A program made the position numbers and the translations under genes. This document shows positions 12,618 to 55,544 of a stretch of DNA of 64,000 nucleotides, in pieces; position 1 is the stretch's first letter; each line of letters begins with the position of its first letter. Origin of the DNA: Bradyrhizobium sp. 199 (GTDB lineage: Bacteria > Pseudomonadota > Alphaproteobacteria > Rhizobiales > Xanthobacteraceae); NCBI RefSeq assembly GCF_023073355.1, contig NZ_JADPJI010000005.1, positions 1,736,001-1,800,000 on the forward strand. Reading direction: 5' to 3'. The notes beneath the pieces were generated by a model. The model saw nothing but the letters and a program-made list of their open reading frames with translations. It had not been told where the DNA came from and searched no databases.

Positions 12618-12642
12618 GGAACAACTGAAATCTCCTTTCGTT
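12618..12642 (+). promoter_or_regulatory. EcfG-type promoter, GGAAC-N16-CGTT
   Basis: An exact match to the alphaproteobacterial general-stress-response sigma factor consensus lies 45 bases upstream of the DUF1236 start codon. -35 GGAAC is at 12618-12622 and -10 CGTT at 12639-12642. Confidence 0.75.
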
Positions 12643-12686: not shown

Positions 12687-13484
12687 ATGTTGAACCGCTT
12701 TATGATCTCGGTTGCCGCACTCGCACTGGTCGCAGGCACTGGTGCGGCAAACGCACAGGGCACGGGCCGCGACAGCGGAGGTGGCGCCGGCGGTGCGCAG
12801 ATGCAGCAATCGCAGCCTTCCGGTGGTGCCGGCTCGACGGGCCGCGACTCCATGAGCAAAGACAAGGGTACCGTCGGCCAGACCGGCGGCGCGATGAAGT
12901 CCGGCGGGGCCTCCGACGAGAAGTCATCCGGTGCGATGGACAAGTCCGGCACCGCTGAGAAGTCCGGTGGCATGGACAAGTCCGGCTCCGGCGCGATGAA
13001 CAAGAACGCGGCGGACGAAAAGGCCGGCGCAAAGGGCGAGCATGCTCAAGGCCAGACGGACAAGTCGAAGAGCATGAGCTCGGACTCCGCCACCAAGTCC
13101 GGTGCCAAGGACATGAAGGCTGAGGACAACAAGGCTGGCGGCGCCGCGAAGAGCAACAATGCCGAGAACCGTCCGGCCACCACCGATACCAAGCAGCAGA
13201 CCACGACCGGCAACGCTCCGGCCACCGCCGCCGCACCGCCGGCCGAGAAGAGGACCGAGATCTCGAGCGCGATCAAGTCGACCAAGATCGAAGAGACCAC
13301 TAACGTGAACTTCAACATTTCGGTCGGCGCCGCGGTCCCGGCGTCGGTCCACTTCCACCCGCTGCCGCCCCGGATCGTCGAGATCTACCCGCAGTGGCGT
13401 GGCTATGAAGTGATCTTCGTCCGCGGCCAGTACGTGATCGTCCGTCCGCAGACGCGAGAGATCGTCTACATCATCGAAGGCTAA
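12687..13484 (+). CDS. DUF1236 exported protein, paralogue 1
   Basis: Exported protein of unknown function, 265 residues. After a signal peptide (residues 1-23, cleavage near ANAQG) comes about 165 residues of low-complexity Gly/Ser/Lys/Asp sequence (KSGG and KSG repeats), then the conserved DUF1236 C-terminal domain with TNVNFNISVGAAVPASV, RIVEIYPQWRGYE and IVRPQTREIVYIIEG. The domain is typical of Bradyrhizobium and relatives, and its role is not established. A perfect EcfG-type promoter precedes it. A paralogue with the same layout is at 43751. ATG 12687 follows GAGGAGAA. The hydrophilic linker resembles desiccation-related proteins, but that is only a compositional resemblance. Confidence 0.88.
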   Translation: MLNRFMISVAALALVAGTGAANAQGTGRDSGGGAGGAQMQQSQPSGGAGSTGRDSMSKDKGTVGQTGGAMKSGGASDEKSSGAMDKSGTAEKSGGMDKSGSGAMNKNAADEKAGAKGEHAQGQTDKSKSMSSDSATKSGAKDMKAEDNKAGGAAKSNNAENRPATTDTKQQTTTGNAPATAAAPPAEKRTEISSAIKSTKIEETTNVNFNISVGAAVPASVHFHPLPPRIVEIYPQWRGYEVIFVRGQYVIVRPQTREIVYIIEG

Positions 13485-14815: not shown

Positions 14816-16174
14816 ATGTTCGACAAGATCCTCATAGCCAATCGCGGCGAGATCGCCCTTCGCATCCTCAGGGCCTGCAAGGAGCTTGGGATCGCGACCG
14901 TCGCCGTGCATTCCACCGCCGACGCCGACGCAATGCATGTGCGCCTGTCGGACGAGAGCGTCTGCATCGGGCCGCCGGCATCCAAAGACAGCTATCTCAA
15001 CGTCCCCGCGCTGCTTGCGGCCTGCGAGATCACCGGCGCCGATGCCGTACATCCCGGCTACGGCTTCCTGTCGGAGAATGCCCGCTTCGCCGAAATCCTG
15101 TCCGAGCACAATCTGCATTTCATCGGTCCGAAGGCCGAGCACATCCGCCTGATGGGCGACAAGATCGAGGCGAAGAAGACCGCCAAGCGCCTGGGCATCC
15201 CCGTGGTGCCCGGCTCCGACGGCGCTGTCGGCCCCGATGACGACGCGATAGCGATCGCCCGCAAGATCGGCTTCCCGGTGCTGGTGAAGGCCGCGGCCGG
15301 TGGCGGCGGCCGTGGCATGAAGGTCGCGCACAGCGAGGCCGACCTCCAGGTGGCGCTGTCGACGGCGTCCAACGAGGCCAAGTCCGCCTTCGGCGATGCC
15401 TCCGTCTACCTCGAAAAATACCTCCAGAGGCCGCGCCACATCGAGATCCAGATCCTCGGCGACGGCCGCGGCGGCGCCATCCATCTCGGCGAACGCGACT
15501 GCTCGCTGCAACGCCGCCACCAGAAGGTCTGGGAAGAAGGCCCCTCGCCGGTTCTTGCCGCCGCCGCCCGCGCCAAAATCGGCGAGACCTGCGCCAAGGC
15601 GATGCGGGACATGAAATATCTCGGCGTCGGCACCATCGAGTTTCTCTACGAGGATGGCGAGTTCTATTTCATCGAGATGAACACGCGCATCCAGGTCGAG
15701 CATCCCGTCACCGAGAGCATTACCGACATCGACCTCGTGCTGGAACAAATCCGCATCGCCGCCGGCGGCGACCTGCCGGCCAAGCAGGAAGAGATCCAGG
15801 TCATCGGCCATGCGATCGAGTGCCGCATCAACGCCGAGAATCCCCAGACCTTCCGGCCCTCGCCCGGCCGCATCCTGCAATATCATCCGCCCGGCGGGCT
15901 TGGCGTCCGGATCGATTCCGCCGTCTACCAAGGCTACACGATCCCGCCCTACTACGATTCCCTGGTCGGCAAGCTGATCGTGCACGGCAAGACCCGCGCC
16001 GAATGCCTGATGCGGCTGCGCCGGGCGCTCGACGAGATGGTGGTCGAAGGCATCGAGACCACGCTGCCGCTGTTCCGCGCGCTGGTGCGCGAAGACGACA
16101 TCATCAACGGCGACTACCACATCCACTGGCTGGAACAGTATCTCGCCGGCAAGGCGGAACCCGCGCCGAGATAA
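14816..16174 (+). CDS. accC: Acetyl-CoA carboxylase, biotin carboxylase subunit
   Basis: ATP-grasp biotin carboxylase, 452 residues, carboxylating biotin on AccB using ATP and bicarbonate. The N-terminal domain begins [16 protein letters not shown]; the glycine-rich ATP loop is [14 protein letters not shown]; metal-binding and catalytic residues lie in [14 protein letters not shown], and the C-terminal domain contains the RINAENP motif. Length matches the family. It lies 82 bases downstream of accB, with a repeat in the gap. Confidence 0.98.
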
Positions 16175-16188
16175 TCTCCGCGCTTGGT

Positions 16189-16213
16189 GGAACCCCTTGG
16201 CCCCGATCGCGTT
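16189..16213 (+). promoter_or_regulatory. EcfG-type promoter, GGAAC-N16-CGTT
   Basis: An exact general-stress promoter match (GGAAC 16189-16193, CGTT 16210-16213) sits 67 bases upstream of the GTG start of the CHASE3 kinase. The same stretch has GC-rich dyad symmetry (CCCCTTGGCCCC and GGGGCC...AAGGGG) that could also act as the accC terminator. Confidence 0.7.
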
Positions 16214-16280
16214 CTGGACGGTTGGGGCCAGTTCCAAGGGGGCGTTTTGATTCCACTGAATGTAGACCGGGTGAACCGTC

Positions 16281-17807
16281 GTGACGGCTGAAGCCCATCG
16301 ACGGCGCACGTTCTGGCAGATCCTGCTGTTTTCGGCGGGGCTTCTAGTGCTGACCGTGATCAGCGCCGGCTCGGTCTATCTCGTCGACAAGGCGCGGCAG
16401 GACAGTAAGTCGGTGGTTCATACCATGGAGGTGGAGAACCAGATCAATGCCCTGCTGCTGGAGATCCGCCGCGCGGAAAGCTCCGCCCGCGGCTTCCTGC
16501 TGACCCGGGCGGAGAACTTCAGAATTGATCACGAAAACGCCGTGGCGGCCATCATCCCGGCCCTGGACAAGCTCACACGCCAAAGCGGCGACAATCCCGC
16601 GCAACGCGAGAACGTGGAAAAATTAAGCGCGGCGATCGAGACCCGCCTCGGCCAATTCAAGCAGGAGATGGACTTCATCCGCCAAGGCCAGCCCGATCAG
16701 GCCGCTGCGCTGATCCGCGAGGTCGTATCCACCGAAGCCACCGCCGCGATCGCCGAGGTCGCGAACGCGATGATCCAGGAAGAGGAGCGCCTGTTCCGGC
16801 TCCGCACCATCAACTCCGACCGCAGCCAGACCCTCGCTGCATCGATGACGGGAGTCGGCTCCGGCCTCGTCGTGCTGCTCGCCCTGATCTCGATCTGGCT
16901 GGTGCGGCGCTCGGCACTCGCCCGCGACGAGGCTGAGAGACGCCTGCGCGAAGGCTACGCCAACCTCGAATCCATCATCGATGAGCGCACCGCGGATCTG
17001 CGCGAGGCCAACGACGAGATCCAGCGCTTTGCCTACATCGTCAGCCACGATCTGCGCTCGCCGCTGGTCAACATCATGGGATTCACCAGCGAGCTCGATG
17101 AGCTCGGCAACGACATCTTTCGCCGCATCGGCAGCCTTGCCCAGGTCCCCGCGGACGGACCGCCACTGGCGCCCACAGGACCCGGCGAGATCGCGCTCGA
17201 GGGCGCCGACAAGCAGCTCTCGGAGGATTTTTCCGAAGCGCTCGGCTTCATCAAGTCGTCGATCGCCAAGATGGACCGGCTGATCTCGGCGATCCTCAAC
17301 CTCACCCGCGAGGGCCGGCGCGAATTCCAGCCCGTGAAGATCGACACAAGCGAGCTGATCGAGACCATCGTCTCGACGCTGGCGCACCAGGCGGCCGAGG
17401 CGCAGGCCCAGATCCATCTCGAGGCCCTGCCAAATGTCGTGAGCGACCGCCTCGCGCTCGAGCAGATCTTCTCCAATCTGATCGACAATGCGATCAAATA
17501 TCTCAAGCGCGGCGTGCCCGGCGAGATCAGAATACGCGGGCGGACCAAGCTCGGTTACGCCATCTTCGAGATCAGCGACAATGGCCGCGGCATCGACCCG
17601 AAGGATCACCAGCGGATCTTCGACCTGTTCCGCCGCGCGGGAACCCAGGACAAGCCCGGCCAGGGCATCGGTCTTGCGCATGTGCGTGCACTTGTGCGTC
17701 GCCTCGGCGGCACCATGTCGGTATCGTCGGAACTGAACGCGGGCAGCACCTTTACCGTCACGCTGCCGATCGCCTGGAACGTAAGCAACCGGAACGCAGA
17801 TCGATGA
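16281..17807 (+). CDS. CHASE3-domain sensor histidine kinase
   Basis: Membrane histidine kinase, 508 residues. TM1 (about 12-35) and TM2 (about 188-208) flank a CHASE3 periplasmic sensor, recognisable from EIRRAESSARGFLLT. A coiled coil (210-250) leads to the HisKA domain with phospho-acceptor H256 in YIVSHDLRSPL; the ATPase domain has NLIDNAIKY (N box), DNGRGI (G1) and GQGIGLAHVRALVRRLGG (G2). The YIVSHDLRSPL type and the lack of a fused receiver recall bacteriophytochrome-related and Bradyrhizobium stress kinases. A GTG start overlaps no RBS of note. Its stop overlaps the next gene by four bases (ATGA), so it is translationally coupled to a receiver protein, its likely partner. The signal sensed is unknown. 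Confidence 0.92.
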   Translation: MTAEAHRRRTFWQILLFSAGLLVLTVISAGSVYLVDKARQDSKSVVHTMEVENQINALLLEIRRAESSARGFLLTRAENFRIDHENAVAAIIPALDKLTRQSGDNPAQRENVEKLSAAIETRLGQFKQEMDFIRQGQPDQAAALIREVVSTEATAAIAEVANAMIQEEERLFRLRTINSDRSQTLAASMTGVGSGLVVLLALISIWLVRRSALARDEAERRLREGYANLESIIDERTADLREANDEIQRFAYIVSHDLRSPLVNIMGFTSELDELGNDIFRRIGSLAQVPADGPPLAPTGPGEIALEGADKQLSEDFSEALGFIKSSIAKMDRLISAILNLTREGRREFQPVKIDTSELIETIVSTLAHQAAEAQAQIHLEALPNVVSDRLALEQIFSNLIDNAIKYLKRGVPGEIRIRGRTKLGYAIFEISDNGRGIDPKDHQRIFDLFRRAGTQDKPGQGIGLAHVRALVRRLGGTMSVSSELNAGSTFTVTLPIAWNVSNRNADR

Positions 17808-18244
17808 CCCAGCCTGTCACCATCATCATGATCGAGGACGACGAGGGCCACGCCCGCCTGATCGAGCGCAACATCCGCCGCTCCGGCGTCTACAACGAAA
17901 TCGTCTCCTTCAAGAACGGCACGGACGCGATGCTGCACCTGTTCGGCGCTGACGGCAGCGGGCTCGTGCAGAAGGGCAATGCGCTCTTGATCCTGCTCGA
18001 CCTCAATTTGCCCGACATGACCGGGATCGACATCCTGCGGCAGATCAAGGAAAACAAATATCTGAAGGCGTCGCCCGTGGTGGTGCTGACCACCACCGAC
18101 GATTCCCAGGAAATCAAGCGTTGCTACGAACTCGGCTGCAACGTCTACATCACCAAGCCCGTCAACTACGAGAATTTCGCCAATGCCATCCGGCAGCTCG
18201 GCCTGTTCTTCTCGGTCATCCAGGTCCCGCCCGCCGCCCCATGA
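17804..18244 (+). CDS. Single-domain response regulator
   Basis: Stand-alone receiver domain, 146 residues, related to the Rcp1/phytochrome-associated group. Acidic pocket E11-D12-D13, phospho-acceptor D66 in LLLDLNLPDMTG, Thr in VVLTTTDDSQEI and the conserved lysine in YITKPVN. It has no output domain, so it probably relays phosphate or docks on a partner. It overlaps the CHASE3 kinase upstream (ATGA) and the response regulator/kinase downstream (four bases), so the three form a tightly coupled operon. Confidence 0.93.
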   Translation: MTQPVTIIMIEDDEGHARLIERNIRRSGVYNEIVSFKNGTDAMLHLFGADGSGLVQKGNALLILLDLNLPDMTGIDILRQIKENKYLKASPVVVLTTTDDSQEIKRCYELGCNVYITKPVNYENFANAIRQLGLFFSVIQVPPAAP

Positions 18245-19344
18245 ACCAGCGCACACCTACACTGCTCTACATCGATGACGACGGCGCGCTGGCGCGCCTG
18301 GTCGATCGCGGCCTGACGCGGCGCGGCTACAGGGTCGTCCATGCCGCGAGCGGCGAGGAAGGTCTGGAGCGCATCCGTCGCGCGGATACCGAGGGCGGCA
18401 TCGACGTGGTCGCGCTCGACCAGTACATGCCCGGCCTCGACGGGTTGGAGACGCTGGAGCAGATCATGGCGATCCCCGGGGCGCCGCCGGTCGTGTTCGT
18501 GACGGCCTCGCAGGATTCCAACATTGCGGTCACCGCGCTGAAGGCCGGCGCGGCCGACTATCTCGTCAAGGACGTCACGGGCGATTTCATTCCCCTGCTC
18601 CACGTCGCAGCCGAGGGCGCGCTGCGCCAGGCCGAATTGCAGAAGGCGCGCGAGGAAGCCGAAGCCGAGATCCATGCCTCGCGTGACCGCTATGCCGCGC
18701 TTGCCGCCGAACGCGAGCTGCTGCTGCGCGAGGTCAACCACCGCGTCGGCAACTCGCTCCAGATCATCGCTTCGCTGCTGCACCTTCAGGCAAGCTCCGC
18801 CACGCATGACGACGTCAAGGCGGCACTGACCAATGCGATGGGCCGCGTCGCCGCGGTCGCGCAGGTACATCGGCGTCTTTACACATCGCAGGATCTGAAG
18901 AGCGTGGTCCTGAACCAGTATCTGGACTCGCTGCTCGAGGATCTGCGCCGCTCGGCTGAAGGCAACCGGATGTCGCGCCTGACGCTGAAGGCCGAGCCGA
19001 TCGAGATCGATCCTGACCGCGCCGTCGCCGTCGGCATCATCGTCAACGAGCTGGTGATGAACGCGGTGAAATACGCCTATCCCGACGGCGCCGGCCCGAT
19101 CCATGTCGAGCTGAATTCGAACGGCGACGATCTCCTGCTGTCGATCACCGACCACGGCGTCGGCGACAACGTCAAGGCCGATCCGCGCTCCACCGGCATG
19201 GGCCAGCGCATCGTCGCGGCCATGGCCTCCAAGCTCGACGCCTCGGTCGAGCGCGATCCCGCGCATTCCGGAACCCGGATCATTCTGAAGTTCGGTCGCG
19301 TGCCCGCAAGCCCCGGCAAGACCAGCACCGCCGCCGCGGGTTGA
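18241..19344 (+). CDS. Response regulator fused to HisKA_2/HWE-type histidine kinase
   Basis: Soluble hybrid protein, 367 residues. An N-terminal receiver (phospho-acceptor D60 in VVALDQYMPGLDG, K110 in YLVKD) is joined by a coiled coil (about 128-160) to a HisKA_2/HWE-type kinase core with H167 in LREVNHRVGNSLQI and the ATPase motif IVNELVMNAVKYAYPDG. In alphaproteobacteria such kinases commonly feed PhyR, the anti-anti-sigma regulator of the EcfG general stress response. No phyR, nepR or ecfG is in the window, so the link is by family and by the EcfG-type promoter at the head of the operon. The ATG at 18241 overlaps the preceding gene; an earlier in-frame start lies inside that gene. Confidence 0.9.
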   Translation: MNQRTPTLLYIDDDGALARLVDRGLTRRGYRVVHAASGEEGLERIRRADTEGGIDVVALDQYMPGLDGLETLEQIMAIPGAPPVVFVTASQDSNIAVTALKAGAADYLVKDVTGDFIPLLHVAAEGALRQAELQKAREEAEAEIHASRDRYAALAAERELLLREVNHRVGNSLQIIASLLHLQASSATHDDVKAALTNAMGRVAAVAQVHRRLYTSQDLKSVVLNQYLDSLLEDLRRSAEGNRMSRLTLKAEPIEIDPDRAVAVGIIVNELVMNAVKYAYPDGAGPIHVELNSNGDDLLLSITDHGVGDNVKADPRSTGMGQRIVAAMASKLDASVERDPAHSGTRIILKFGRVPASPGKTSTAAAG

Positions 19345-23472: not shown

Positions 23473-23497
23473 GGAACATCGATGCAGAGACTTCGTT
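23473..23497 (+). promoter_or_regulatory. EcfG-type promoter, GGAAC-N16-CGTT
   Basis: Exact general-stress promoter match (GGAAC 23473-23477, CGTT 23494-23497), 28 bases upstream of the start codon of the small PepSY-like gene. Confidence 0.75.
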
Positions 23498-23525: not shown

Positions 23526-23780
23526 ATGAAGTTTGCCGCAATTCTGGTTCTCGGTTCACTTGCCCTCAGCTCGGCAGCAAGCGCAGATCAACCCGGAGCT
23601 GACTGGATGCCGATGGAGCAAGTCAAGGCGAAGGTTATGGAGTCGGGCTATACGCAAGTCACCAAGCTTGAGGCCGACGATGGCCGGTGGGAGGGTGAAG
23701 GCGTCAAGAACGGACAGAAGATGGAATTCCATGCCGACCCCAAGACCGGCCTCATCGTGAGCGAAAAGCCGGATCACTGA
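23526..23780 (+). CDS. Small exported PepSY-like protein
   Basis: Protein of 84 residues with a signal peptide (1-20, ...SSAASA). The mature part carries one PepSY-like unit: WMPMEQVKAKVMESGYTQVTKLEADDGRWEGEGVKNGQKMEFHADPKTG follows the usual helix-strand-strand pattern with a C-terminal x-D-x-x-T-G. PepSY proteins are often periplasmic inhibitors or sensors; partner unknown. ATG 23526 follows CGGGAGA. It has its own EcfG-type promoter and sits apart from the upstream transporter. Confidence 0.85.
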   Translation: MKFAAILVLGSLALSSAASADQPGADWMPMEQVKAKVMESGYTQVTKLEADDGRWEGEGVKNGQKMEFHADPKTGLIVSEKPDH

Positions 23781-43668: not shown

Positions 43669-43693
43669 GGAACTTCAGCTCCTCGAGGCCGTT
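43669..43693 (+). promoter_or_regulatory. EcfG-type promoter, GGAAC-N16-CGTT
   Basis: GGAAC at 43669-43673 and CGTT at 43690-43693, 57 bases upstream of the second DUF1236 gene. Confidence 0.75.
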
Positions 43694-55493: not shown

Positions 55494-55519
55494 GGCGCGC
55501 TCCTCCTCTTTCGAGTCGG

Positions 55520-55544
55520 AACGCGCAAGCGGAACGGGCGTTCC
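55520..55544 (-). promoter_or_regulatory. EcfG-type promoter, GGAAC-N16-CGTT (minus strand)
   Basis: On the minus strand GGAAC is 55544-55540 and CGTT 55523-55520, 27 bases before the SH3-protein start codon. Confidence 0.75.

Follow-up and report, generated by a model that had tools for sequence, protein, structure and literature searches.

A KipF-PakF-like kinase operon of Bradyrhizobium sp. 199, a probable input of the general stress response behind an EcfG-type promoter

Organization of the operon and of the site upstream of it

The window analysed here, a stretch of 64,000 nucleotides (nt) of Bradyrhizobium sp. 199 (GCF_023073355.1, NZ_JADPJI010000005.1, positions 1,736,001-1,800,000), contains a three-gene phosphorelay operon on the forward strand, encoding a sensor histidine kinase (HK1), a stand-alone response regulator receiver (RR) and a second histidine kinase (HK2). 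The operon is likely to be the Bradyrhizobium orthologue of the KipF-PakF module of Sphingomonas melonis, which consists of a CHASE3 kinase (KipF) and a receiver-HisKA_2 kinase (PakF). The whole reading, namely that this orthologue feeds the general stress response and is itself transcribed by the stress sigma factor EcfG, is given a probability of about 65%.

The gene of HK1 (16281-17807, + strand) begins with GTG and encodes 508 amino acids (aa), with a CHASE3 domain at aa 42-176 (97 bits in Pfam), a HisKA domain with H256 and a HATPase domain. RR (17804-18244, +; 146 aa, D66) matched Response_reg alone, and no output domain was found in it with Pfam. HK2 (18241-19344, +; 367 aa) comprises a receiver with D60, a kinase domain that is far more of the HisKA_2 type (82 bits) than of the HWE_HK type (27.5 bits), and a HATPase domain; its catalytic histidine, H167, lies in the motif HRVGN. 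The genes overlap by 4 bases at both junctions, HK1/RR and RR/HK2. A preliminary description of this DNA had proposed a three-gene operon with such overlaps, the same domain types and H167 as the histidine of the last kinase; the open reading frame (ORF) calls and the Pfam scan agree with it, and the position of H167 is borne out by the motif.

An EcfG-type site, GGAAC-N16-CGTT, is located at 16189-16213 (+), 67 nt 5' of the GTG of HK1 and behind the stop codon (16174) of the upstream neighbour accC (14816-16174, same strand). A single match of this kind is weak evidence, since the 6.1-Mb genome contains 135 matches to the pattern and 123 to the reversed control pattern; enrichment within one genome was dropped as evidence for a promoter, and the accC-HK1 gap was therefore compared across the genus. 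HK2 was matched in all 98 sampled genomes of the genus, strongly in 97 and weakly in one that is 75% complete (G097). The comparison covered 89 loci, the window and 88 others, after eight genomes (G016, G033, G035, G051, G060, G072, G074 and G090) had been left out for matches that were split, partial or near a contig end. The gene order accC, HK1, RR, HK2 was found in 89/89 loci, two of which (L067 and L078) match the later part of HK1 alone.

With flanks of 30 nt included, the exact site was present in 72 of the 89 gaps. Strictly within the gap it was found in 71 loci, while 500 rounds of shuffling gave 0.21 loci on average and never more than 3, a figure that is no probability, since the loci share kinship. 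GGAAC occurs in 88 gaps and, in the 89th locus, within the flank. The stronger point is that both boxes appear to be retained while most of the spacer varies: in the 63 rows with an N16 spacer, in which the motif columns are fixed by row selection, most of the 16 spacer columns had 0.15-0.95 bits, and three were well kept (1.46, 1.55 and 1.8 bits). A conserved GGAAC-N16/17-CGTT close upstream, the sequence mark of the EcfG regulon, was accordingly found before HK1, and its conservation makes an EcfG-type promoter credible.

It is very improbable that GGAAC/CGTT is no promoter at all, and that a chance match or a hairpin at the end of accBC has been seen while the operon is read through from accC. 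The pattern is hardly commoner in the genome than its reversed control, and the read-through RNA over the gap of the window folds at z = -2.38, as that explanation would have it; the exact site is, however, shared by most of the genus and retained over a clade, and the hairpin is not conserved. Folding with z < -2 was obtained in just 13 of 88 loci, and a hairpin or terminator reading of the gap was rejected.

Distribution of the module and of the site

A wider set of 120 loci (L236-L355), some of them genus members, was drawn from two collections. Its counts of the site, of the HRxxN motif and of the tree include duplicates (L241/L294 and L265/L308 are identical in HK2) as well as five partial or unrelated loci (L351-L355). 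In the 55 loci with less than 50% identity in HK2, HK1 was found in 49, RR likewise in 49 and both in 48, and such distant triads occur in Sphingomonas, Caulobacter, Microvirga, Devosia and others. The EcfG-type site had a narrower distribution. Where HK2 shows at least 60% identity, 42 of 53 loci carry the exact site, as against 2 of 67 below 60%; a relaxed pattern gave 45/53 and 7/67, some of the seven lying far from the gene. When 114 HK2 rows were placed in a quick tree, one clade with full support held 52 of them, 41 with the site; of the 62 rows outside it, 2 had the site. In view of the counts below 60% identity, the idea that the site belongs to the triad in general was rejected. Because the triad is kept in distant loci while the site is largely confined to one clade, the relay appears to be old and its EcfG control a trait of this lineage.

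Within the site-bearing clade, one locus (L251, from a genome that is 74% complete) has lost HK1 and RR, so that HK2 lies directly behind accC and the site. This is a natural simplification of the operon.

The first kinase does not carry CHASE3 throughout. Among the 120 loci, HK1 was matched from the sensor part on in 104, in its later part only in eight and not at all in eight. Of the eight later-part matches, one is cut by a contig end and one is unrelated; the other six (L312, L321, L322, L331, L333 and L340) have other sensors, an HK1-like core being combined with MHYT and PAS domains in one Methylobacterium and with PAS repeats in five Microvirga, in each case before the same RR and HK2. 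The domains were also scanned in two alignments (A2 and A3, of 36 and 39 rows) made from 42 loci picked for diversity, from which short or stop-containing matches had been dropped. CHASE3 and HisKA were found in 39/39 HK1 rows, which had been chosen for a long HK1 match, and REC and HisKA_2 in 36/36 HK2 rows. A CHASE3-HisKA kinase is accordingly the first gene in the operon of the window and its near relatives, and 6/120 loci of the wider set differ. To judge from these sequences, the sensor is exchangeable and RR-HK2 is the fixed core.

In 109 of 111 loci, conservation was higher in RR than in HK2 (medians of 68% and 46%, respectively, in the most distant group), and a purely passive role of RR as a phosphate sink is therefore unlikely. 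The best solved relative of RR is 3heb (224 bits). A role as a hub of the SdrG/MrrA type (FATGUY receiver) was considered and rejected, the motif PFXFATG[G/Y] being missing: it was found neither in RR (VVVLTTTDD) nor in the receiver of HK2 (VVFVTASQD).

The receiver-kinase HK2 and its relation to PakF and PhyR

According to a passage of PMC5863495, the stress response of Sphingomonas melonis involves phosphorylation of PakF, which lacks a sensor domain, by the kinase KipF; part of PMC10950880 describes KipF as a CHASE3 kinase with a suggested role in salt sensing, and a passage of PMC5898713 terms PakF a PhyR-activating kinase. The operon of the window shares with the module of strain Fr1 the CHASE3 kinase and the sensorless receiver-HisKA_2 kinase with HRxxN, and Sphingomonas genomes show the same order of the triad. 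HK2 itself is a receiver-HisKA_2 kinase that carries this motif and has no other sensor domain. HRxxN was found in 113/113 HK2 orthologues; in 202 HK2 sequences, the H, R and N were all invariant and D60 was conserved in 201. One match spanning receiver and kinase was obtained per genome in 14/14 named genomes, nine of them Sphingomonas or Sphingomonas-like, strain Fr1 being outside the set. The EcfG-type site sets the two systems apart: it is a feature of the Bradyrhizobium clade, and of the Sphingomonas loci only L319 has it in exact form.

HK2 also resembles the receiver-controlled histidine kinase LvrB of Leptospira. The stretch from the receiver lysine K110 to H167 (18568-18741, +) had a length of 57 residues in 158 of 202 sequences and of 50 in the other 44, no other value being observed, and the two lengths differ by one heptad. 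In a quick tree built without the linker, the two lengths required three changes, of which well supported branches enforced two. In an AlphaFold2 model of HK2, with a mean predicted local distance difference test score of 88.8, one helix runs from the receiver into the DHp domain, unbroken over residues 116-186. In a fold search with the full-length model, LvrB took ranks 1-6, followed by EL346 and then PorX, with the kinase domain of a Brucella LOV-HK at rank 30; the global superposition on LvrB was poor (TM 0.33, about 20% identity), which is expected of flexible multi-domain chains. The matches listed from a search of the PDB with a profile of HK2 (60 of 216) were to receivers. The REC-DHp-CA order, the unbroken helix and linkers differing by sevens are features of the LvrB type, and gating of the kinase by the receiver of HK2 is very probable.

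According to part of PMC13269768, linkers of this kind favour multiples of seven in LvrB, and phosphorylation of the receiver forms a coiled coil that frees the catalytic domain. By analogy, the heptad-spaced linker of HK2 suits coiled-coil gating and, like the conservation of D60, would be compatible with phosphorylation of the HK2 receiver by HK1. The sections consulted of PMC5863495 and PMC13269768 describe, for LvrA-LvrB, an upstream kinase that phosphorylates the receiver of a REC-DHp-CA kinase, as is proposed here for Bradyrhizobium, along with linkers in sevens; unlike HK1, however, LvrA is a soluble hybrid kinase, and LvrB passes the signal on to LvrC, a receiver with an anti-sigma domain, and not to PhyR, NepR and EcfG.

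Within the genome of the window, HK2 was the best match to a PhyK model, with 119.4 bits over the kinase core, the next core match having 35.5 bits; two other proteins matched the sensor part of the model with 56.3 and 41 bits, and all of these scores are below the full-length cut-off of 750. HK2 differs from the PhyK/PhyT phosphotransferases by the receiver in front of its core and by the kept G-box glycines of the ATP site; moreover, it is not encoded at phyR. PhyR, NepR and EcfG are all encoded in this genome. No kinase was found among the ORFs beside its phyR-nepR-ecfG locus, and its PhyR kinases must therefore be encoded elsewhere. By eye, the gap between phyR and nepR (L166, 6607-6788) contains a phyR promoter, GGAAC-N16-CGTA; no canonical site towards nepR-ecfG was seen there.

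Across 385 genomes of the class, NepR was detected in 16 of the 20 that have HK2 and in 50 of the 365 others (p = 3e-10, kinship ignored), and in 14 of 17 once partial HK2 matches were dropped. In three genomes of one other genus (G582, G505 and G279; loci L356, L357 and L358), the triad adjoins ecfG, phyR and the gene of one more kinase, whose core resembles that of HK2, NepR being detected between them in two of the three. A fourth genome has a distant relative of HK2, without HK1 or RR, 1 kb from ecfG. The identification as KipF-PakF was made because of the same gene order across Alphaproteobacteria, the HRxxN motif, the co-occurrence with NepR and the adjacency to ecfG and phyR.

Another explanation is that the module is an output only: EcfG would make it, HK2 would feed some other response regulator, and no loop would exist. 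A passage of PMC5964349 notes that promiscuity can occur among the receivers and kinases of this network, yet HRxxN, the PhyK-like core, the co-occurrence with NepR and the adjacency to ecfG/phyR all argue against it, and we regard it as rather improbable. The preliminary description had linked the last kinase to PhyR signalling and had placed an EcfG-type promoter before the operon. The first proposal gains from the same four features, the core being the most PhyK-like in the genome and the adjacency holding in three genomes, and from the likely orthology with PakF; the second has held up through conservation in the genus and its neighbours (72/89 exact and 41/52 clade rows, as above). What that description had missed is the match to a known two-tiered pathway and the fact that the EcfG site is not general to the module.

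Sign of the loop and meaning for the stress response

In the mechanism proposed, every phosphotransfer, the transcription by EcfG, the nature of the signal and the direction of the feedback are inferred. HK1 would sense an envelope or osmotic signal through CHASE3, autophosphorylate at H256 and phosphorylate both RR, at D66, and HK2, at D60 of its receiver. Once phosphorylated, D60 would cause the long HK2 helix to form a coiled coil and free the catalytic domain, whereupon HK2 would autophosphorylate at H167 and pass the phosphate to PhyR, either directly or via another receiver and a phosphotransferase. In S. melonis, direct transfer from Pak kinases to PhyR is minor in vivo and the main route is Pak-SdrG-PhyT-PhyR, according to a passage of PMC6599016. 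Phosphorylated PhyR would then remove NepR from EcfG, and EcfG would transcribe the operon from 16189-16213 beside its other targets, so that stress would raise its own sensors. RR is likely to serve the operon as its own brake or adaptor. Positive feedback, as put forward in the preliminary description, would follow naturally from an activating HK2; the positive sign is nevertheless the least certain step of the mechanism.

LovK of Caulobacter carries a LOV sensor, where the operon of the window has a receiver and a separate CHASE3 kinase; no LOV or PAS sensor was found on HK2 with Pfam, which gave REC, HisKA_2/HWE and HATPase only. LovK-LovR otherwise has in common with this operon a HisKA_2-type kinase and a lone receiver in one operon under control of the stress sigma factor (part of PMC5964349; for Bradyrhizobium, EcfG control is predicted from sequence), and it is proposed there to damp the response, the SigT-controlled lovKR forming a negative-feedback loop. 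The same module and promoter might likewise act in the negative sense here, more product damping the response, either by RR draining phosphate from HK1 or by HK2 working mainly as a phosphatase or a sink while HK1 is inactive, in the way put forward for LovK-LovR. The output-less receiver encoded in the operon, whose conservation above HK2 in 109/111 loci points to a constrained role, would fit such damping. In L251, however, HK2 is the only one of the three genes left behind the EcfG site, a situation easier to reconcile with an input kinase than with a sink pair, and PakF is named as a PhyR-activating kinase in the passage of PMC5898713; negative feedback is considered unlikely.

Several observations weigh against an EcfG-transcribed KipF-PakF orthologue that feeds PhyR. 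The orthology is drawn from architecture and from the descriptions given in citing papers. NepR was not found in 4 of the 20 HK2 genomes, one of which is G279, with phyR and ecfG beside the triad. No EcfG-type site was found close 5' of HK1 in the three triads adjoining ecfG and phyR (L356, L357 and L358), and autoregulation is therefore not general. The exact site is missing from 17 of the 89 genus loci; GGAAC is kept in these variants, with CGTA, CATT or AGTT as the -10 box in some. Read-through from accC could also drive the operon, and no terminator of convincing quality was found in the accC-HK1 gap. Finally, the six loci with PAS or MHYT sensors meant that CHASE3 could not be upheld as a constant part of the first kinase.

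Further exact EcfG-type matches were observed in the window. One at 12618-12642 (+) lies 44 nt 5' of the ORF of a Ser/Gly/Ala-rich predicted secreted protein (12687-13484), which is thereby a plausible further target of EcfG. Another, at 23473-23497 (+), is just 5' of a small predicted secreted protein (in-frame ATG at about 23526, ORF end at 23780). Matches overlapping on both strands were seen at 55518-55544, and others at 43669 (+), 43524 (-) and 45068 (-).

This kind of system is already known; of its apparently lineage-specific EcfG control, no description was found in the literature searched, most subscription papers being outside its scope. It is possible, at somewhat less than even odds, that an ancestor of Bradyrhizobium, Rhodopseudomonas, Afipia and Tardiphaga brought an old modular relay under the sigma factor that it activates; past stress would then set the sensitivity of one input and the conserved RR its ceiling, giving an accelerator and a brake in a single operon. 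The shared relay has apparently been rewired, in one lineage by an added promoter and elsewhere by a change of sensor.

Part of PMC8092242 reports that an efficient soybean symbiosis of Bradyrhizobium has the general stress response as a pivotal element, and no input kinase of this response in Bradyrhizobium was named in the titles or abstract openings among the matches listed. The operon is a concrete candidate for such an input, with an orthologue in 97 of the 98 sampled genomes of the genus, fed by a CHASE3 kinase, possibly sensing salt or osmotic conditions and probably under EcfG. A stress programme that switches on its own relay would give the bacterium a means of adjusting how sensitive it is.

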